Below are positions 1,838-64,000 of a DNA stretch of 64,000 bases, piece after piece. Every line of letters begins with the position of its first letter. Position 1 is the first letter of the stretch. Both the position numbers and the translations under genes were made by a program. This stretch comes from Syncephalis plumigaleata (taxonomy: Eukaryota; Zoopagomycota; Zoopagomycetes; Zoopagales; Piptocephalidaceae), in assembly GCA_025201365.1 (NCBI GenBank), contig JAIXMF010000020.1:124001-188000 (forward strand), given 5' to 3'. Below the pieces are notes generated by a model. That model was not told the DNA's origin. It was given only the letters and a program-made list of their open reading frames with translations, and did not search any database.

Positions 1838-3608
1838 ATGGGGAATCGACAAAGTACACTCAAGTCTTCACCGGGCTATTCGCGTTTATATCCCGAGTCG
1901 TTTGTGGGCAAACCCTTCGCATCTTATATAGGCAAGTATACTCACCAATATTATTATTATATGAGTAAAGAAATGGAGAAACTACGCGTAGAATGAAGAA
2001 TGAAATAGATATCAACTTTACTATTAGTATCATATTGCTTAGAAATTAATCTATCATTGGCATAGTATTATTTTATAAATATGAGATATATAACTAATTG
2101 TTATGCTACAGATCTAGCAGGAAGAGCTCAAGGGGGTCGTATTGTCGATGTAAGCGACGAGTTCTTTGCATCGGCCGACAATCTACTACAAACTCATGAA
2201 CCAGTCAGTAAACCGAACACTTATACCGAGAATGGAGCATGGATGGATGGTTGGGAGTCACGTCGTCATAATCCCGATCACGATTGGTAAGTCATATAAT
2301 TGATGAGATTCTTATTCTTACTGTTGTTGTTATTAGGGTGATTATTAAATTGGGATTCCCTGGTAGTATTGTTGGATTCGACATCAATACTGGCCATTTT
2401 AACGGTAATCAAGCACCAGAAGCTAGCGTAGAAGCCTGCTTTATCAGTGAAGACACGTTGAAACAAGGTGGCGATATCGATTTTGATTGGGATTCCGTGT
2501 TGCCACGCGTCGATCTAGGTCCAGCGAGTAAACACTACTTCATGCTGGATAGCCCTACACCAGTTTATAATTTCGTCCGTTTACGCATCTATCCGGATGG
2601 TGGTGTGGGACGATTCCGCGTGTACGGCACGTGAAACCGAACTGGCCTACCACTGCCACTGCAGGTAAACAATTGATGGATCTCGCCTTTGTAGGCAATG
2701 GTGGACGTGTCGTGGCTCAGAGCGATCAACACTACACGCCATCGAGTAATCTCATTCTACCGGAGCGTGGACACAACATGGGCGATGGCTGGGAAACGAA
2801 GCGTAGTCGTATACCCAACCATTGCGACTGGGTACTCGTACGCCTGGGCATGCCAGGTAAACTGGAAAAGTGCGAGATTGACACGCACTACTTTAAGGGC
2901 AACTTTCCAGATGGTGTGGAACTTGACGCTTGTTACTCCGACGTGGAGGATCCCAGCCTAGAGACGGACGTGGCATGGTTCCAAATATTGCCGCGTCAAC
3001 GATTGTCGGCTCACCAGCAGCATCATTTCTCGTTGGACTTGCGTGATCGTGCGTTTACTCATGTGCGCATGACCATCTTCCCTGATGGTGGTGTGATGCG
3101 TCTACGTGTGTACGGTCGTCCATTATTAGCGGAATCGGCTAAGAATGAGGAGGGTGGTGTGGTGATCGAGACGAGCGCTAAATCATCGTCGGCCACTTCT
3201 ACGCCTATTCCACTATCACGTACAACAAAAGCGGAAACGACCGATGCGACACCATCACCGGGATCGTCCACCTCCACCTCGACTGTCACCTCGACTGCCA
3301 CCGATAGCACTAGGGAAACAACGGGTAGTGGCGTGTCAGCGACTGCATCAATGGCCGCATCCAATGCACGATCAGCTCATCGTAAACGATCACGTCGTGA
3401 GCGTGCCATAAAAGAGAATGGAGATGACGAGGAATACGTGGAGGAAACGATCACCACACCAACGATTGCGAATGGCAAGGGAGCTGGACGTAAACCGAAG
3501 CGTCGTGCCGTGAATACACCGGTTGCCACACCATCATCTAGGAGTAGGAAAACACCGATACTCGATGGTGCTGGTGCTGGTGATGCTGGTGGTAATGATG
3601 AAAGCTAA
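1838..3608 (+). CDS. DAL2: Allantoicase with basic C-terminal extension
   Basis: Hydrolyses allantoate to ureidoglycolate and urea in purine catabolism. Exons 1838-1931, 2112-2286 and 2337-3608. Two allantoicase repeats are visible, each with a WMDGWE/MGDGWET-type motif, HDW/HCDW, a glycine-rich LG-PG turn and a terminal YPDGGV/FPDGGV-RVYG strand. The first intron (1932-2111) uses a GC donor (GCAAGT); reading Y-I-D-L-A across it fits the family. One base seems missing at about 2630, where GGC ACG should continue into the link between repeats. After the second repeat (about 3119) comes an unusual 160-residue Ser/Thr-rich then Lys/Arg-rich tail with GRKPKRR, absent from ordinary allantoicases of about 340 residues. 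The next gene downstream, convergent, is the following pathway enzyme. Confidence 0.9.
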
Positions 3609-36568: not shown

Positions 36569-37132
36569 GATGTTGCGGATAGAAGCAGAAGAATAAACAC
36601 AAACAGTTCAATCGATATGATTTAGAGGAGATGAAGAAAAAAGGAAAGAAAATCAGTAATACGTGTTAATGATGGTCGAGTACAATTTAAGACTAAAGTG
36701 CACAGTGCCATTTCGGGAATGGTTCGTTTGATGATTCCTTGGTCAATCTACTCGGATAGAGGATGTCCACAGCAAATCAGCGAATGGTGTCATTATATCG
36801 TCGTGATATACTGATATCCCATTTCAATTGATACATGAACCGACAATGCTAATAATGATAATAATAATAGGAAAAAATGAAATCAGAATGAAATTGTAAT
36901 TGTAATGGTCAGAATACGACATATTTATTCAATGAATGAGAGAATGATCTTGTAGATATACTTGTTGTTGGTACCAAGGAATAATGACTTGAATGACATG
37001 GACACTAAAGGGTCTTGCACCGATACATTCTTGACTTGATTACCTATAATATCTACTTGATGATGTCCTTGTCTTGTTCTGTAATCATAATGGATCAGTA
37101 TGAGTATGATTATTGTGGATTATTACTACCGC
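36569..37132. other. Intergenic region, 3' side of micro-exon gene
   Basis: About 560 bases; promoter of the CBP4-like gene at one end. No open frame worth calling; nothing else recognised. Confidence 0.6.
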
Positions 37133-39403
37133 TTAATTCTATCGTCCAGATGATGTAGATTGTAGTGTGATTAGCGTATCGTAGATGACGATTGAAATGT
37201 TAACTTACGTCCTGTTATCCAAAAAAACATACGTGGATCATGTGTCATATTGTAGTCAGTACCTCATTCATTCATTGCAATCAGAAATATCAACTTACAA
37301 GCTGTTATGCAGAAACATACGGATCATGTGCCATAGTGTAATTAGAACCTCGTTCATTGCATTCAAAAATGATCACTTACAAGCTGACATACGAGAACAT
37401 AAGTGGATTGTGTGCCATATCGTAGTTAATATCCAGTTCCTTGCAGCTAGTATGATAACTTACTCCCTATCATACAAGAGCATACGTGGATCATGTGTTG
37501 TACTGGAATTAGTATCTCGTTCATTACGATCAGAAATGGTGACTTACGCCCTATCGTATACAAGCATATGCGAATCGCATATCATAGGAAAGTTAGTACA
37601 GCGTAGATTGTAGTCAGAGCGATAACTTACAAGCTGTTATACACAAATATATAAAATTGTGAGCCATACCGTGATTAGTACATCCATGCATTACGGTCAG
37701 AACGATAACTTACAAGCTGTCATACGAGAACATAAGTGAATCATAGGTCATATCGTAGTTAGCATCCAGTTCCTTGCAGTTAGTATGATAACTTACGCCC
37801 TATCATACAAGGACATATGAACCATGTCATAGTTAGTACATTCATATATTACAGTTAGAATGATAACTTACAGGCTAGCATGCACAAACATATATGTATC
37901 ATATGTCGTTATGTGGTTAGTACATCCATATATTATAGTTAGAATGATAACTTACGCCCTATCATACAAGGACGTATGTGGATCATATGTCGTTATGTGG
38001 TTAGTGCACCGTACAGCATTATTAGAACAGTGACTTACTTTCTATCGTATACAGGAACATACATGGGTCGTGTGTCATAGCGTGATTAGTACCTCATAGG
38101 TTACGATCAGAAATGATAACTTACTTTCTATTATGCACAAGCATACGAATAATACAGTGTATTATAATTAGTGCACAATGTAACATTCTAGGCTGCTAAC
38201 TTACGCCACCTTGTAACGTAGAAACATATAATTTGTTTTATATTACAATTAGCATGTATTTATTATGGCCAATAGGATTACTTACGTTGTTTTGGTGCTA
38301 ACATATTAAGAGATGGAATAATCGTTACAATGTGATTAGCGTAGCGCTTGTTATGGTCGATAGAATAGCTTACGAGGTGGAGCTAGCAAATTAATATATA
38401 AAATGAGCATTATAGTGTGGTTAGCATAGCATTTGTTATGCTCTATAGGAGAGCTTACCGTGTTGACCTAACATATTAATAAGAAGAATAGATATTATGA
38501 GGTGATTAGCATAGTATTTATTATGACCAATAGGATTGCTTACCTTGTCCTGGTACTAACAAATTAAGAGATGGAATAATCGTTACAATGTGATTAGCGT
38601 AGTACTTGTTATAGCCAATAGGATAGCTTACGAGGTGGAGCTAGCAAATTAAGAGATAGGATGAACGTTATGATGTGATTAGCATAGTAATTGTTATGGT
38701 CAATAGACTAGCTTACCATCTTCAGCTAACAAATAAGAGATATGATAAACATTATAATGTGATTAGCATAGTATTTTATGGTCAATAGATTGCTTACCAC
38801 CTTCAGCTAGCAAATTAAGAGATAGGATAAACATTATGATGTGGTTAGCATATCATTTGTTATGCTCTATAGGAGAGCTTACCCTCTTCAGCTAGCAAAT
38901 TAAGAGATAGGATAAACATTATGATGTGATTAGCATAGTACCTACTATGGCCAATAGGACTGCTTACCTTGTCTTGGTGCTAACATATTAAGAGATGGAA
39001 TAGACATTACAATGTGATTAGCGTAGTGCTTGTTATGACCAATAGGATAGCTTACGAGGTGGAGCTAGCAAATTTATATATAAAATGAGCATTATAGTGT
39101 GATTAGCATAGCATTTGTTATGGTCAATAGGATAGCTTACGAGCTTGTGCTAACAAATTAATAGGAAGAATAGACATTATAGTATGATTAACATGTGAAA
39201 ACAACCATTTAATATACATGAACTTACGGTCTATCGGTAATCATCCGTAGACAATGAAACAATAGACTACGATTAGTACATCAATTGATTGGGTCACGGC
39301 CAGACATACCACGACGTTCCAGGACGGGACTAGCTTCAACGGCGACCAGACTGGCGAGAGCGACAACGGCGACGGCAATAGCGATAATGGCAGAGAACTT
39401 CAT
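37133..39403 (-). CDS. Putative micro-exon gene: secreted peptide precursor
   Basis: ATG at 39403 begins a textbook signal peptide (MKFSAIIAIAVAV then VALASLVAVEA) and SPVLERR, exon 1 ending at 39310 before GTATGT. Downstream, 25 micro-exons fit between an AG acceptor and a GTAAG(T/C) donor: 39228-39230; 39141-39149; 39056-39064; 38968-38979; 38883-38891; 38798-38806; 38717-38725; 38632-38640; 38544-38555; 38459-38467; 38374-38382; 38286-38297; 38205-38209 (5 nt); then 3-nt exons at 38125, 38039, 37956, 37872, 37797, 37714, 37631, 37548, 37464, 37381, 37299, 37209; last exon 37133-37138 (N, stop). Joined they stay open for about 83 codons: Asp, then PQA, PPP, PPRQ, AEE, AEG, AED, APP pieces, later a Lys/Gly/Leu-rich end. 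A simpler alternative is an unspliced 40-residue peptide ending RRGMSGRDPIN. Confidence 0.6.
37139..38209 (-). repeat. Tandem intron/micro-exon array, 3-nt exon class
   Basis: Thirteen intron units of 70-87 nt (typically 80) separated by 3-nt exons (AAA, AAA, GGC, CCT, GGC, CTT, CTT, GGC, GGA, CTT, CTT, GAC in order of transcription). Each has a GTAAGT donor, a CTAA(T/C) or CTGAC branch-like motif, then an AG-free stretch including CATGATCC-type text, and an acceptor (GATAG, ACAG or TCAG). The units are clearly homologous to each other but more diverged than those of the neighbouring array. Confidence 0.8.
38210..39230 (-). repeat. Tandem intron/micro-exon array, 9-12 nt exon class
   Basis: Twelve tandem units, mostly exactly 76 nt of intron plus a 9- or 12-nt exon (one intron is 72 nt). 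Each intron begins GTAAGC (GTAAGT in the first and last), has a (T/C)GCTAAT(C/A) or TGCTAACCAC branch-like site about 40-45 nt before the acceptor, no AG in between, and ends TTGCTAG or ATGTTAG. Three exons are identical (CTCCACCTC at 39056, 38632 and 38374), showing duplication of units. Confidence 0.85.
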
Positions 39404-39528: not shown

Positions 39529-39545
39529 GATCGATTTATAGCCGA
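39529..39545 (-). promoter_or_regulatory. TATA box of micro-exon gene
   Basis: GGCTATAAATCGATC on the minus strand about 135 bases upstream of the ATG at 39403. A good consensus TATA box suggests that the peptide gene has a defined, possibly strong and regulated promoter. Confidence 0.65.
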
Positions 39546-40283: not shown

Positions 40284-41728
40284 CCGGCGTTGAACTGTCA
40301 ATCGATCATTTCCAGACTGGAAGCTATGCATATGGCCTGTGCATATGAAAAGAGGGTTGACTGTTCGTATGTTTATTCGTGATATTGAACACTTGATAGG
40401 TTACAATACCTGTTCCTATTAGTGCAATTATGTAGATATCAATCAAATGGCCAGAATATATCGTATCACCATTATCATTGATAGCTATCGATATATTCGG
40501 TGAATGATGACGCGTACACTTGCATCAACTGGTATTGCTTGTTTGTATCGTACATCCAGATACATCAACTACTTTGTATTGATTGATGATACGATGGTAT
40601 TATTGCAATAATTGTATTGATTGTTGTATACATGGCTAGTGTATTATGGAATGAATAATAGTAGTAGTAGTAGTAGTGAGTGGAATAGTATGTTAATAGG
40701 CGAGTGATCATTGACGGATACAATGGACAGACAAATACCAAATGACAGGTAGTATTGGTGTAGTAGCACACCGAACAGATGAGTACCAATTAGATGGAGG
40801 AATACATGTCCAGCCTGCTTCTGTCAATTGTCGAATGCAATCCGAATGCATGAAGCAATATCGATATGAGCTGTTCACGTCAACTACCGTATGATTGTAT
40901 TGTCGTCTTTGCTTACAATGTATCATGTAGCATTCCTCTCACCATATGAATGTACATCGTATGAGCTATTACAATTGAATTAGACATGCATCAGGTGAGT
41001 GTCAAGATAGTCACTATCATCTAATCCCTTTTAGATGCACACGATGCATATGAATGACGATTAAAGTGGAAATGTAAGGAAAGCTATCCATGTGTTTAAT
41101 CATCATAGCAATTAGCGATGAATGAATGAATGGTGAATGTTTGTTATGTCGTGTAACCGCATGCTCTGTCAATTGTCTGAATCTACACATCATCATTATT
41201 TCAGAATACTCCATCAATAATGACGCGTACACCTGTTACAATCATCATGGCTGGTTATATTCTATTGAAATTATTGTACTGAGTTTTGTTATTGTTTTTG
41301 TCTTTGTCATTTTTTTGTATTGAATACCATGCATATGAATATAGATTGTTATAGAGAATCATTAATGAACAGGATACTATTAGATTGAACGTGCTTTGCA
41401 ACTGCTTCATTCACATGTTATATCTTGTATAGTTTAACGTATTGCTATGATTACTGCTAATAATAAGCATACCAATTGTTTTATCGTTGTCATAGTCTTA
41501 TAATACAAATCAATTGAAAGAATCTACCAGATTTAATTAGAATGCTACTAATAAGTATTAATCTGTTTTTTATTTACTGATGTCGTCATCATCACCTCCA
41601 TCGTCATCACCTATATCTGTTATTCACCACATTGTATCTCATACTCGTTAGCTTTGTTTGTCTTGCCTGCTTTCCTACACGTTTTGTCTTCTATCGTTCT
41701 GCTTCAGCCTCTTCTATATTGCATAACT

Positions 41729-42562
41729 ATGACCTCGCATAATGTTCCGTTCATACCTCACGATAACCCGCCTCCACCCATTATCTATGAGCCTACTGAT
41801 TTCACTGGTGCACTGGCAGACCACGTCGTCAAGGTAGCCCAGGAAGCGATAGCACGCCATGATCGTTTTACGGTGGCTATCTCGGGTGGCTCGCTGCCGT
41901 CCCAGCTTAGCGGTCTGTTGCAGCCCGCTATTCGGGACACAATGGACTGGTCGCGCTGGCATGTATTCCTTGCGGACGAGCGTCTAGTGCCGCACAATCA
42001 TGCCGATTCGAATTATCGACTTATCAAGGAACATCTACTGGACCACGTGCCCATTCCAGCATCGCAAGTGTATCCGGTGAACGAGGCACTACTTAAAGAG
42101 CCGGAGGAGGCAGCCGACGACTACATGAAGGTGCTACAACGCGTATTTGCCGCTAAAGACGCGGTGAAATTCCCGGTATTCGATCTTATCCTATTGGGCA
42201 TGGGACCAGATGGTCATACGTGTTCACTCTTCCCAGGCCATGAACTACTCGACGAGCGCATAGCCTGGGCTGCCTCCATCACCGATTCGCCCAAACCACC
42301 ACCGGAGCGTATCACGCTAACCCTACCCGTGCTTAACCACGCGCATCACGCGACATTTGTGTGTGCCGGCACATCTAAACGAGACGCGCTACGCCGTATT
42401 CTGGCCAAATCAGCAGGTGAAACAGATCCAGCGCAGCATCCATTACCCGCGGCTCGTGTTCACCCCCTTCATGGTAGACTTGTATGGATTCTTGACCATG
42501 TCGCAGCCGAGGCATTGGCCGATATTGAATCCGTAGTTCCCATTAGTCAATATAAACTATAA
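41729..42562 (+). CDS. SOL: 6-phosphogluconolactonase
   Basis: Second step of the oxidative pentose phosphate pathway. Single exon, 277 codons, intact. The in-frame ATG at 41729 is preferred over upstream non-ATG codons. Motifs: FTVAISGGSLPSQLSGLL, WHVFLADERLVPHNHADSNYRLIKEHLL, FDLILLGMGPDGHTCSLFPGHELL, ITLTLPVLNHAHHATFVCAGTSKRDALRRIL, PARVHPLHGRLVWILDHVAA. GC-rich, C/G-ending codons and no intron set it apart from its neighbours. Certain family. Confidence 0.96.
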   Translation: MTSHNVPFIPHDNPPPPIIYEPTDFTGALADHVVKVAQEAIARHDRFTVAISGGSLPSQLSGLLQPAIRDTMDWSRWHVFLADERLVPHNHADSNYRLIKEHLLDHVPIPASQVYPVNEALLKEPEEAADDYMKVLQRVFAAKDAVKFPVFDLILLGMGPDGHTCSLFPGHELLDERIAWAASITDSPKPPPERITLTLPVLNHAHHATFVCAGTSKRDALRRILAKSAGETDPAQHPLPAARVHPLHGRLVWILDHVAAEALADIESVVPISQYKL

Positions 42563-45507: not shown

Positions 45508-48672
<3,165 letters not shown>

Positions 48673-53649: not shown

Positions 53650-56336
53650 TTACAACTTGTCGTAGAAACGATCAAATGGTGGGATAGCCTTTTCGAGACC
53701 CTTGCGTTCACGGACACCGGTGATGGTCTTGAACAACATACAGTTCTCGTCCTTGATGTCACCAGGCATAATCTGCCAGTGATCGAACACGGATTGAGGG
53801 AAGGCTTGACCACCGGTTTGCGAGCGGAGATCGGCGGTGAAACCAAAGGATTCCTTGACGGGCAAGTAGGCCTTCAAGTTGTACAATGGCGTACCTGGAC
53901 GTTGCTCCTCCGAGAATACGTGACCACGACGACGATTGAGTACGCTGTAGATACCGCCCATGACTTGCTCGGGACATTGGATCTCCACGAGGTAGATTGG
54001 CTCTTGAAGGGCTGGCTTGGCGGTAAGAACCGAGGCGTAGATGACACGACGGCACGTTGGCATATTTGACCGGTACCACGATGGATAGCATCAGCGTGTA
54101 GGGTGACATCCAACAAGTTGAAGCGACAACCGCGCATTGGCTCGTCACAGCAGACACCTTCCTTGCTGGCCCATTGGAGGGCGCTGGCGCAAGAGTCCTT
54201 GATTTCGTTAAGGTATTGTACAGCCTTGGTGGTGTCAACAAGCACGTTAGGGCCGTTGTTTTCTGGACCGAAACTCCAGATCTTACGGGCCTCATCGACG
54301 TTCCAGTTGTGGGTCTCGGCGAGGTAGCGGGCACGGACCTTAGGATCATCACGATCGGTGACCTTACCGGCTTCGATGTCGGCGGACAATTCGTCACCCA
54401 ATGGCATGGCCTTCATGAAGATACGGTTGTGTTTGTTGGGCGACTTGGATAGACAGGTCATGTCGGATTCAGCGGTAACGGTTTCACGATAACCGACGAC
54501 TGGGTCCATCTTCTTGAGTGGCACTTGAGCGTGATCTTCCTCGAGATCCTTTAGACAAATTTCCAAATGCAATTCACCGGCACCGGCGACGATGTGTTCA
54601 CCGGACTCGTTGGTGAAGCAGAGCACGCAAGGATCGGACTTGGAGAGACGCTTGAGACCTTCGACCAACTTGGGCAAATCGTTGGCGTTCTTGACTTCGA
54701 CGGCAACTTGCACGACAGGCGAGACGGAGAACTTCATCACCTTCATGTTGTGGGCAACCTCGGAGGTGGTGATGGTACCGGACTTGAGCAAGAACTGATC
54801 GACACCGACCAAACCGACAATGTTACCGGCTGGGCAGTCCTCGATGGCTTCGACGTAACGACCCATCATGAGAATGGTACGCTGGATGGACTTGACGGCC
54901 AAATCTTCCTTCTTGCCAGGAATGTAGTTTGGACCTTGGATACGGACCTTCAAACCGGAACGGACGGTACCGGAGAAGACACGACCGAAGGCGTAGAAAC
55001 GACCCTTATCGGAAGTGGGCACCATCTTGGAGACGTACAACATGAGTGGGGCCTTTGGATCGCAGTTCTTGATACCGATGGCGCACTCATCGTCAGCTGG
55101 ACCTTCGTACAAGGTCTCGGCACGGTACTTTTGAGCGGTAACTGGGGATGGCAAGTGAATTACCAACATTTCCAATAGAGCATCGGCAGCTGGCAAGAAC
55201 TTGCGCATAACGATCTTGAGAAGGGCCTTACCCTCGAGGTCGCGTTCTTCGGCCTTGAGTTGGATTTCAAGCTTCTCGAGCATGGTCTTGGTTTGCTCCT
55301 TCTTGAAGCCCATGATGGCTTCGAACAACTTGTAGATTGGGTCCAATACGAACATACAGAAGGCACGCTCGAGTTGATTACCATCGGCGTCGACGCTCTT
55401 GGTGGCCCACTTGCGGGTCTTTGGGTTGAAGAAGTGGTCGCCCCAGAGACGTTCCATCATCTTGTTGCGGTCAACACCGAACTTGGCGGCGTAACGCTTG
55501 GCGAATTGACGGAGGGTGAAGCCCCATCCGTGGAGACCGGAACCGAAGGCGACGGTACCGTGGTATGGGTAGACTTGACGATCGCCCAAGGATGGATCGG
55601 TGTAGGTGGAGATAATGACGTTGACGGACTCAATGGTACGCTGGAAGGATTGGTACAAGTCTTCCTTTGGCGATTGCAACTCGAGCAAGGCACGATCCAC
55701 CTTGTTGATAATGATAACTGGCTTAATACGCTCAGTGAGTGCCTGACGCAATACAGTTTCAGTCTGGACGCACACGCCTTCGACACAGTCGACGACAACG
55801 AGGGCACCATCAGTAACACGAAGGGCAGCAGTAACTTCGGACGAGAAATCAACGTGTCCCGGTGAATCGATCAAGTTGATCAAGAAGTTGGGACCTTCCG
55901 TCTTTTGCTGGATATCCTTGAGTTCGGACTCTGGCATTTCAAAGTACATGGAAATGGCAGTGGACTTGATGGTAATACAACGGTCCTGCTCGTCCTGACG
56001 AGTATCGGTGAAACGGGCTTCACCAGCCTTGGCCGAGGAAATAATACCGGCTCTTGATACCAACGAATCAGTCAAAGTAGACTTGCCATGATCGACGTGA
56101 GCAATCACAGACATGTTACGAACGTTCGTAACCTTGTCCATAAGACCACGGATCTCATCTAATAGTATATGCAAAGGGATACGGTTAGTTTACATGCATG
56201 TATATTATTACTGTATATTATTTGCTTCTATGCTACTTCTACAATCGTCATCATCATCCATCTATCTATCTAGCTATTCATGCATGTATGCATCCATCCA
56301 TCCATCCATCTACTTACCAATAGTAAAGTTCACCAT
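53650..56336 (-). CDS. EFT: Elongation factor 2
   Basis: GTPase that drives ribosomal translocation. Exon 1 is 56318-56336 (MVNFTI), exon 2 is 53650-56158. G1 AHVDHGKST, switch [13 protein letters not shown]3 [63 protein letters not shown], the diphthamide loop [16 protein letters not shown] and the C-terminal [32 protein letters not shown] end. C/G-ending codons throughout fit very high expression and create long antisense open frames. Immediately after the diphthamide loop (about 54064-54068) one base is missing; [16 protein letters not shown] continues in the next frame. As EF2 is essential, this break is almost certainly not in the living gene. Confidence 0.97.
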
Positions 56337-63131: not shown

Positions 63132-64000
63132 CTATTTACCAAAGTTATTGTGTAAGCCGATGGTTTCCGGTGCATCTGCCTCGCGCTTCATCTTCTCTTC
63201 GTCATTTCGTGCACTATCAATCATGCGTAGATATTCCGAGGATACATCACCCGTAACGTAGCGTCCATCAAATACCGATGTATCAAATTGCTTTAGGGTT
63301 GGATTGAACTTGTTACAGGCAGCCACAAGATCCGGCAATGTCTGGAAGATGACGCAATCGGCACCGATCACCTTGGCGATCTCTTTTTCATCTCTATTAT
63401 ACGCTACAAGTTCGTGCGGTGATGGCATATCAATGCCGTAGACATTGGCATATCGAATGGCCGGTGCAGCCGAGGCAAAGTAGACCTTCTTCGCACCGAC
63501 ATCACGGGCCATTTGTACGATTTCACTCGAGGTAGTACCACGCACGATGGAGTCATCCACGAGTAGTACATTCTTACCGGCGAATTCCATGGCCATCGCG
63601 TTCAATTTACGACGTACATTCTTGCGTCGCATCGTCTGTCCGGGCATGATAAACGTACGACCGATATAGCGATTCTTAATAAATCCCTCACGATAGGGTA
63701 ATCCCAGTTTGTGGGAGAGTTGTAGTGCTGATACACGACTCGTATCGGGCACGGGAATCACCACGTCGATATCGTTATCCGCACCTAGTACCTTTAAAAT
63801 TTGATCGGCCAATGCCTCGCCCATGGCTAGACGTGCGTTGTACACGCTAACACCATCGATAATCGTGTCGGGACGCGCAAAGTAGACGTATTCAAAGATA
63901 CATGGCGCGAATGTTCGATCCGCAACCAGTTGACGTCTTGTAATACCTGAACGCGTGATAAGCACAGCTCACCCGGTAATATATCGGTAACATCGGTGAA
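63132..64000 (-). CDS. ADE4: Amidophosphoribosyltransferase (5' part outside window)
   Basis: Committed step of de novo purine synthesis: PRPP plus glutamine to phosphoribosylamine. Only the C-terminal PRTase half is in the window; the N-terminal Ntn glutaminase part lies to the right. Seen: FEYVYFARPDTIIDGVSVYNARLAMGE, VIPVPDTSRVSALQLSHKLGLPYREGFIKNRYIGRTFIMP, RKLNAMAMEFAGKNVLLVDDSIVRGTTSSEI (PRPP loop), VYFASAAPAIRYANVYGIDMPS, FQTLPDLVAAC, FDTSVFDGRYVTGD. A one-base loss near 63969 (GAGCTG for GAGGCTG) shifts the frame before VLITRSGITRRQL. Convergent with LAS21, about 100 bases between stops. Confidence 0.95.

Follow-up and report, generated by a model that had tools for sequence, protein, structure and literature searches.

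The micro-exon genes (MEGs) of schistosomes contain 10 to 20 very short exons within an exon range of 3–81 bp, separated by introns of 100 to almost 5000 bp, and 35 such genes are counted (PMC10526429). The bicycle genes of aphids are fast-evolving putative effectors that are likewise built from many micro-exons (PMC9168663). Among fungi, the SP7-like effectors of Rhizophagus are secreted proteins encoded with one conserved intron before the first repeat and are placed only in Glomeromycotina (PMC11333574), while introner-like elements form families of similar introns within one genome (PMC4457414, PMC9860276). A functional fungal microexon is known from Trichoderma Xlr2; the abstract of that report states that none had been described before in filamentous fungi, and its introduction confines earlier experimental tests of fungal microexons to Schizosaccharomyces pombe (PMC11121469). 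The word microexon is used in a 2005 paper on a Phanerochaete P450 (PMC1184071). Syncephalis, of the Zoopagales, Zoopagomycota, is a mycoparasite (PMC10386755). Here we analyze a stretch of 64,000 nucleotides (nt) of Syncephalis plumigaleata (contig JAIXMF010000020.1, positions 124,001–188,000; the window hereafter), in which a probable micro-exon gene for a secreted peptide lies on the minus strand.

The gene extends from 39403 to 37133 and consists of an exon of 94 nt, followed by 26 introns, 25 micro-exons, and a terminal exon (Table 1). The micro-exons measure 3 nt (13 exons), 9 nt (eight), 12 nt (three), and 5 nt (one), and the introns, at 70–87 nt each, sum to 2019 nt. When joined, the exons form one frame of 83 codons plus a stop (252 nt), encoding MKFSAIIAIAVAVVALASLVAVEASPVLERR-DPQAPPPPPRQAEEAEGAEDAPPLPGQGQHAPPPPKQRGKKGPGLLGGLLDN, a product that contains no cysteine; the predicted spliced mRNA reads CGTCGTG-ACC-CACAAGCTC...GTGGC-AAA-AAA-GGC...GAC-AATTAA. 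Exon 1 specifies the signal-peptide-like MKFSAIIAIAVAVVALASLVAVEA and a short pro-part with a dibasic, Kex2-type ERR at its end, exons 3–13 a Pro/Ala/Glu/Gln-rich part, and exons 15–26 the codons AAA AAA GGC CCT GGC CTT CTT GGC GGA CTT CTT GAC. A preliminary description of the locus had given its coordinates, exon sizes, totals, and an open frame of about 83 codons with the stop in the terminal exon, all of which proved correct upon re-parsing. With a probability of roughly 0.86, we regard the locus as a working gene whose secreted peptide is spliced together from micro-exons; comparison among sequences supplies the exon chain, the coding constraint, the family, and the intronless paralogues on which this reading is built.

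The exon chain is real and lies beyond chance. Without a forced start, the real segment yields a chain of 25 introns, against a maximum of three in 300 dinucleotide shuffles of the same segment (no intron in 80 shuffles, one in 211, two in eight, and three in one), and a splice model trained with the gene left out recovers the identical chain. A scan of both strands found no second chain of at least three such introns within the 64-kb window. The introns fall into two groups, introns 2–12 with a mean mutual identity of 79% and introns 14–25 with 70%; identity between the groups is 65%, and that of shuffled introns is 58%. The tandem relationship proposed for the introns in the preliminary description is supported. 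The first 40 nt of intron 13, which joins the two arrays, resemble introns 2–12 by 78% and introns 14–25 by 68%.

That description had dealt with a single gene, but the locus has a great many relatives and belongs to a very large family. In this genome, the start motif ATGAARTTCTCYGYNATYRTYGC, with up to three mismatches, has 211 matches in 32.6 Mb versus three for the reversed pattern, and a search with the window locus returned 155 matching places, some of which are pieces of one array. The strict pattern CTAAYN{22,50}TAG-NNN-GTAAGT, which describes a branch site, an acceptor, a three-nt exon, and a donor, occurs 1457 times (70 for the reversed control), while the same pattern with a 4-nt exon occurs 37 times (control, 106). 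For 39 family loci, a frame-blind parse by dynamic programming was made, in which scores were given to the donor, the branch site, the acceptor, and the length of each intron, and GC donors and exons of 1–24 nt were allowed; L048, whose start was not recognized, was scanned separately. Across the 39 loci, 824 introns were obtained (median 80 nt, 5–95% range 72–84), together with 764 internal micro-exons, 727 of them multiples of three: 670 of 3 nt, 47 of 9 nt, five of 12 nt, and five of 6 nt, the others being 5 nt (25), 2 nt (ten), or 1 nt (two) long. Because the strict pattern catches only 347 of the 670 parsed three-nt exons, the genome may, by extrapolation, hold about 2800 of them in total. 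Among the first 14 exons, one phase-switching exon (1 to 0) of 2 or 5 nt is present in 28 of 39 loci and absent from eight, with additional odd-length exons in the remaining three, and the longest run, in L044, comprises 45 consecutive single-codon exons (47 three-nt exons in all).

The micro-exons show coding constraint. The 670 three-nt exons, in 550 distinct contexts, contain no stop codon, compared with 21.0 expected from position-specific base use. Among loci with at least eight introns, 30 of 36 are open across the parsed length unaltered, and 33 of 36 once a single acceptor is set 2 nt upstream in L020, L047, and L051; these counts come from manual reading, the script having labeled L043 as open and L016 and L025 as early, with a stop in the terminal exon. 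Among the 11 most similar paralogue pairs (those from a longer list that share k-mers at 0.55 or more), 17 of 702 micro-exon sites and 602 of 12,606 intron sites have changed (p = 0.0023), so that micro-exons change at half the rate of introns, which suggests purifying selection on the micro-exons of close duplicates. For L047/L051, a more distant pair, the changed sites number 37 of 105 in exons and 297 of 2002 in introns (p = 6e-7), the C...CC...CRY framework being retained and the loops altered, a pattern that looks like diversifying change.

The part of the peptide that follows the dibasic RR is hypervariable across arrays. A C-x(n)-CC-x(n)-C arrangement recurs in several of them, including L042 (CSDGYHYVWSWETEQCCPNVGSGPCYDV), L047 (CKPDETFYDGFGGGHCCKKEPVGDCRYQ), and L050 (CHTDQAPHYQWYSWRDECCISNGKWWPDNKLECKQPW), as well as L044 and L048. 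A Pfam search with eight predicted proteins gave three weak matches, the best being to Conotoxin for one of the eight (E 0.012); no Pfam family was assigned to the deposited proteins P0001 or P0005 at E 0.001, and a search of solved structures gave no match below E 0.025. L010 and L011 are set apart by two units, a CTT and a GGT, the corresponding gaps measuring 80 and 82 bp. When units were compared across hand-grouped gene groups, the same amino acid was encoded by 34 of 48 unit pairs at an intron identity of 0.85–0.90 and by seven of seven above 0.90; at 0.75–0.80, the share is 9.3% of 259, with 6.5% expected by chance.

Intronless paralogues provide a further, separate view of the joined exons. 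The joined 3'-untranslated region (UTR) junction occurs at 33 genome places versus none for the control (up to three mismatches), although the one on C107 may instead represent an acceptor that is unspliced. For the joined exon1-CTC-CTCAA-like junction, the count is 30 places versus one, eight of them exact, a few of the three-mismatch places appearing unrelated. Fourteen intronless loci carry an ATG-started open reading frame (ORF) of the MKFS type with 47–143 codons, and intronless examples include L077 (...LERR|APQGLSCDKEKCCIMDSDICRPSSAKTHA) and L068 (...LDRR|APNTQFPGMPAGMPMPPGLIPMPGMPGQ). When 40 of 225 candidates were scored against L077, with L077 itself and L087 excluded, 29 of 38 paralogue matches stopped precisely at the predicted exon-1 boundary. 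In 49 records running from the start to the 3' exon, which were gathered partly through the intronless-junction search and are not a random sample, GTAAG[TC] sites number 7–44 in intron-bearing records and zero in the rest, with no intermediates. A tree of 46 exon-1 plus UTR rows, which leaves out of the 49 a duplicate and two rows that are doubtful, is poorly resolved; it has six label changes (6–8 in bootstraps), is compatible with one origin, and gives no direction from array to intronless copy or the reverse. The 14 MKFS-type ORFs, along with the broken state of some arrays, would suit a reading in which the arrays are drifting dead relics and function resides in the intronless paralogues; this is scarcely credible, given that close duplicates preserve micro-exons better than introns, that the 670 codons lack a stop, and that 33 of 36 arrays are open.

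The correspondence between an array and a plain ORF can be followed in one pair. The array on C1 (1417695–1412300, minus strand), parsed as 64 introns, spells IHDYIYRI...EAEEMKAQLWGKW...LEKANQHLDLFGTIAFEKKQKD, and the plain ORF L091 at C318:1456055 (also on C220) reads IQDYIVRV...EPEEMWKRFFGRI...LQAANQHLDLFGAAAFEKRQKD. The two are colinear, with a local alignment score of 102 that none of 20,000 unit-order shuffles attained (maximum 80); with the three-nt exons alone, 13 of 20,000 shuffles were equally good. Parsing of the array relied on a loosened model and left a few units in doubt, and the shuffle test followed the noticing of the likeness. Retroposition of a spliced mRNA would be the simplest cause of the plain-ORF copy because the reverse would need dozens of insertions placed exactly between codons. 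The preliminary reading of a fungal, secreted micro-exon gene is thus borne out, so far as comparison can do so, by stop-free codons, slower exon change, intronless paralogues, and this array/plain-ORF pair.

Downstream of its phase switch, the L041 array has 41 single-codon exons, and 38 of these are found in the same order in P0001 (BDF22DRAFT_685685), a deposited protein. Homologue searches gave matches only from S. plumigaleata and metagenomes. The metagenome proteins share a diverged prepro part (VDATPVLDRR and similar) and are of two kinds: one ends in GTSGHGHIN or alike, which corresponds to a read-through form, and the other often has RR-APQ, RR-DPQ, or RR-ASQ followed by an open frame of up to ~160 residues. 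The second kind, known from proteins alone, often carries the residues predicted from exon 1 plus the next two exons. Among the 17 named S. plumigaleata family proteins, some (e.g., P0005, P0010, and P0015) contain intron or 3'-UTR sequence read as protein, and in P0005, P0010, P0014, and P0015, intron, 3'-UTR, or neighboring-gene sequence is fused to the first exon. The family points to an effector-like secretome of the mycoparasite, one that is poorly handled by gene prediction.

Several observations weigh against a working, fully spliced gene. Synonymous codon choice in the three-nt exons is uncorrelated with that of three window ORFs (r = -0.02), L006, L012, and L043 (3 of 36 loci) are counted as broken in frame, and the arrays L015, L028, and L046 cannot be traced past four introns. 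Some of the close paralogue pairs may be alleles or come from duplicated contigs. P0001 omits three of the 41 L041 codons as well as the 9-nt and 6-nt exons, and ab initio gene finders might also produce models of this kind. Twelve three-nt exons stand in a row here and up to 45 elsewhere, and such runs, to our knowledge, far exceed any known splicing case. Furthermore, the read-through of intron 1 (window 39309–39281, GMSGRDPIN) reaches its stop at a shared position in all 39 loci, with an identical GMSGRDPIN end in 24 of them; P0006 and P0011 are deposited with that end, and several metagenome ORFs finish with GTSGHGHIN or similar. These ends would be accounted for if intron 1 were mostly retained, in which case the product would be a 40-residue preproprotein ending in GMSGRDPIN, with the downstream array untranslated and perhaps regulatory. 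We consider this very unlikely and have demoted read-through as the main product, as it conflicts with the zero stops in 670 three-nt exons, the slower change of micro-exons than of introns in close duplicates, the cysteine frameworks within the arrays, and the intronless paralogues, which lack intron 1; moreover, intron 1 is conserved over its full length, beyond its ORF part.

For the working micro-exon gene, splicing by intron definition is proposed, in which a GTAAGT donor, a TACTAAY branch site, and a TAG acceptor would be recognized within each ~80-nt intron. As every intron has its own strong splice signals, the spliceosome would take the introns out one after another, each event adding one codon, or three to four within the 5' half, in a process akin to ratcheting recursive splicing that leaves one codon per step. 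Contacts of U1 and U2AF hardly fit together on a three-nt exon, for which reason the introns are probably defined singly and removed in sequence. The 5- or 2-nt exon would shift the reading phase between the gene halves, and the mRNA would encode a preproprotein with a signal peptide, a short pro-part that closes with a Kex2-type RR, and a mature peptide that is short, hypervariable, and derived almost wholly from micro-exons. The introns probably originated through tandem duplication, and whole intron-plus-codon units would be gained or lost as in-frame one-residue changes, thereby allowing the family to diversify quickly. The peptides of the family are probably effectors, and a likely role is that of secreted effector or antifungal peptides of the mycoparasite. 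From these sequences, we infer present-day splicing, its order, secretion, Kex2 processing, and the effector role.

Full inclusion of the micro-exons is favored because cysteine spacing is kept and intronless copies exist. Combinatorial splicing, in which exon subsets would be skipped to give many peptide variants per gene, a mode that has been proposed for schistosome MEGs, is compatible with a working micro-exon gene and is possible, though we regard it as rather improbable. The 727 of 764 micro-exons that are multiples of three would permit it, P0001 lacks three of 41 codons, and the weaker donors GTGAGT, GTAGGT, and GCAAGT occur within arrays; however, multiples of three are equally needed for plain full inclusion, cysteine spacing is constant between relatives when all exons are included, and near-full inclusion is what both the C1/L091 pair and the intronless copies mirror. 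It had been suggested that any subset of exons could be skipped in frame, which is true of the multiples of three but not of the 5-nt exon, whose skipping would shift the frame. More broadly, we propose only tentatively that single-codon exons are the unit of variation, with cassettes duplicated, deleted, swapped via shared introns, and selectively skipped; if so, a couple of hundred loci could yield a combinatorial peptide repertoire against fungal hosts. If dozens of three-nt exons are fully included, the accepted lower limits of exon recognition would be revised.

At the 3' end, the window gene probably has an extra intron in its 3' UTR (37129–37079) because intronless relatives join TTAAGCG straight to GACAAGACAAGGACATC, and a TTAAGCR-like end is seen again in relatives of the gene. 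The final acceptor chosen by the parser (ATTATAG before GTATTCAAG) disagrees with the intronless copies, which indicate an acceptor before ACAAGACAAGG.

Table 1. Features of the micro-exon gene and ordinary genes recognized by Pfam in the window (window positions)
Feature	Position	Strand	Basis or remark
TATAAA box-like site	39535..39540	-	upstream of gene; consensus match alone
Exon 1, 94 nt; encodes MKFSAIIAIAVAVVALASLVAVEASPVLERR plus one base, ends in phase 1	39310..39403	-	
Intron 1, 79 nt; GTATGT donor at 39309	39231..39309	-	splice-model parse
Exon 2 (ACC), 3 nt, phase 1	39228..39230	-	splice-model parse
Intron 2, 78 nt	39150..39227	-	splice-model parse
Phase-1 array: introns 3-12, exons 3-13 (9 nt x8, 12 nt x3)	38286..39149	-	splice-model parse
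Exons 3-8	39149-39141, 39064-39056, 38979-38968, 38891-38883, 38806-38798, 38725-38717	-	
Exons 9-13	38640-38632, 38555-38544, 38467-38459, 38382-38374, 38297-38286	-	
Intron 13, 76 nt; joins the two arrays, acceptor end CAAG	38210..38285	-	
Exon 14 (GTGGC), 5 nt; phase switch 1 to 0	38205..38209	-	
Intron 14, 77 nt	38128..38204	-	splice-model parse
Phase-0 array: introns 15-25, exons 15-26 (12 single-codon exons)	37209..38127	-	splice-model parse
Exons 15-20	38127-38125, 38041-38039, 37958-37956, 37874-37872, 37799-37797, 37716-37714	-	
Exons 21-26	37633-37631, 37550-37548, 37466-37464, 37383-37381, 37301-37299, 37211-37209	-	
Intron 26, 70 nt	37139..37208	-	splice-model parse
Terminal coding exon (AAT TAA GCG); stop at 37135-37133	37130..37138	-	
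Probable 3'-UTR intron, GTAGTAATAATCC...GATTACAG	37079..37129	-	sequence and intronless relatives
3'-UTR exon with ACAAGACAAGGACATCATCAAG block, up to AATAAA at 36929-36924	36924..37078	-	block present in relatives too
Allantoicase repeat	2571-3605	+	Pfam
Glucosamine-6-P isomerase/6-phosphogluconolactonase	41555-42562	+	Pfam
AIR synthase, C-terminal part	47874-48425	+	Pfam
Elongation factor, EF-G/EF2 type	53877-56189	-	Pfam
Phosphoribosyltransferase domain	63135-63968	-	Pfam

Variants of the array structure were observed elsewhere in the genome. GC-AG introns with GCAAGT donors lie inside the arrays of L049, L050, and L033, and a 1-nt exon, T, was parsed in L033 and L035. In L033, the next exon is AT (2 nt), and the two would make up one codon; this may be a misparse. 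L048 (C223:612000–618000, minus strand) has 68 introns, a C...CC...C part, and an Arg/Pro-rich tail with many 6-nt, two-codon exons. L052 and L055 are diverged arrays; in the diverged member L052 (C1:2473000–2476200, minus strand), the first exon carries dibasic-flanked repeats, e.g., DHVPPAAFRSLERR, and is followed by a micro-exon array with different introns.

The preliminary description had likened the locus to schistosome MEGs. The likeness holds for the layout, as both would concern secreted proteins of a parasite in which a signal or signal-like exon precedes many short exons and the products are variable. MEG proteins have an N-terminal signal peptide; exon 1 of the window gene may encode one, to judge by the shape of its sequence. 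In the family, 727 of 764 short exons are multiples of three. The short exons of schistosome MEGs, too, are mostly multiples of three. Kinship is not supported, however, and membership was rejected: the introns differ in size (70–87 nt in the window gene and a family median of 80, against 100 to ~5000 bp), and no sequence relation was found in Pfam or homologue searches. Unlike MEGs, the present genes form a larger family in a fungus with no Pfam match, with runs of up to 45 single-codon exons, mutually similar introns, and a 2- or 5-nt phase-switch exon.

Membership among the aphid bicycle genes was likewise rejected, as their internal exons are almost all of phase 2, with ~17 exons per gene on average, whereas the exons here are in phase 1 and then 0, and mostly 3 nt long. 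The SP7-like effectors are fungal secreted proteins, as predicted here, but their cited description includes no micro-exons; with their hydrophilic imperfect repeats and conserved islands, they were excluded as relatives given that the organism belongs to Zoopagomycota and homologue searches gave no Rhizophagus protein. Introner-like elements are similar introns that have multiplied in many unrelated genes. In the gene family covered here, similar introns have multiplied and stand head to tail with single codons between them, and the diverged arrays L052 and L055 exist as well. The regulated microexon of Xlr2, in turn, stands alone in a gene for a transcription factor, in contrast to the long arrays considered here.

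Conotoxins combine a conserved prepro part with a hypervariable mature part and C-CC-C spacing, and the family peptides resemble them in all three respects; no significant match to the Conotoxin family (Pfam PF02950) was obtained, however, for the eight proteins searched. In the literature searched, among the matches listed and with preprints and most subscription journals outside its range, no account of these genes or of single-codon exon runs was found, nor any precedent for as many as 45 single-codon exons in succession. With such genes, it becomes testable how the spliceosome handles a long series of three-nt exons without exon definition. Micro-exon families are known from schistosomes and aphids; the case described here is fungal and far more extreme, as some of its genes would devote a separate exon to almost each codon of the mature peptide. 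It also illustrates clearly, in nature, how introns duplicate in tandem and how genes diversify in codon-sized steps.

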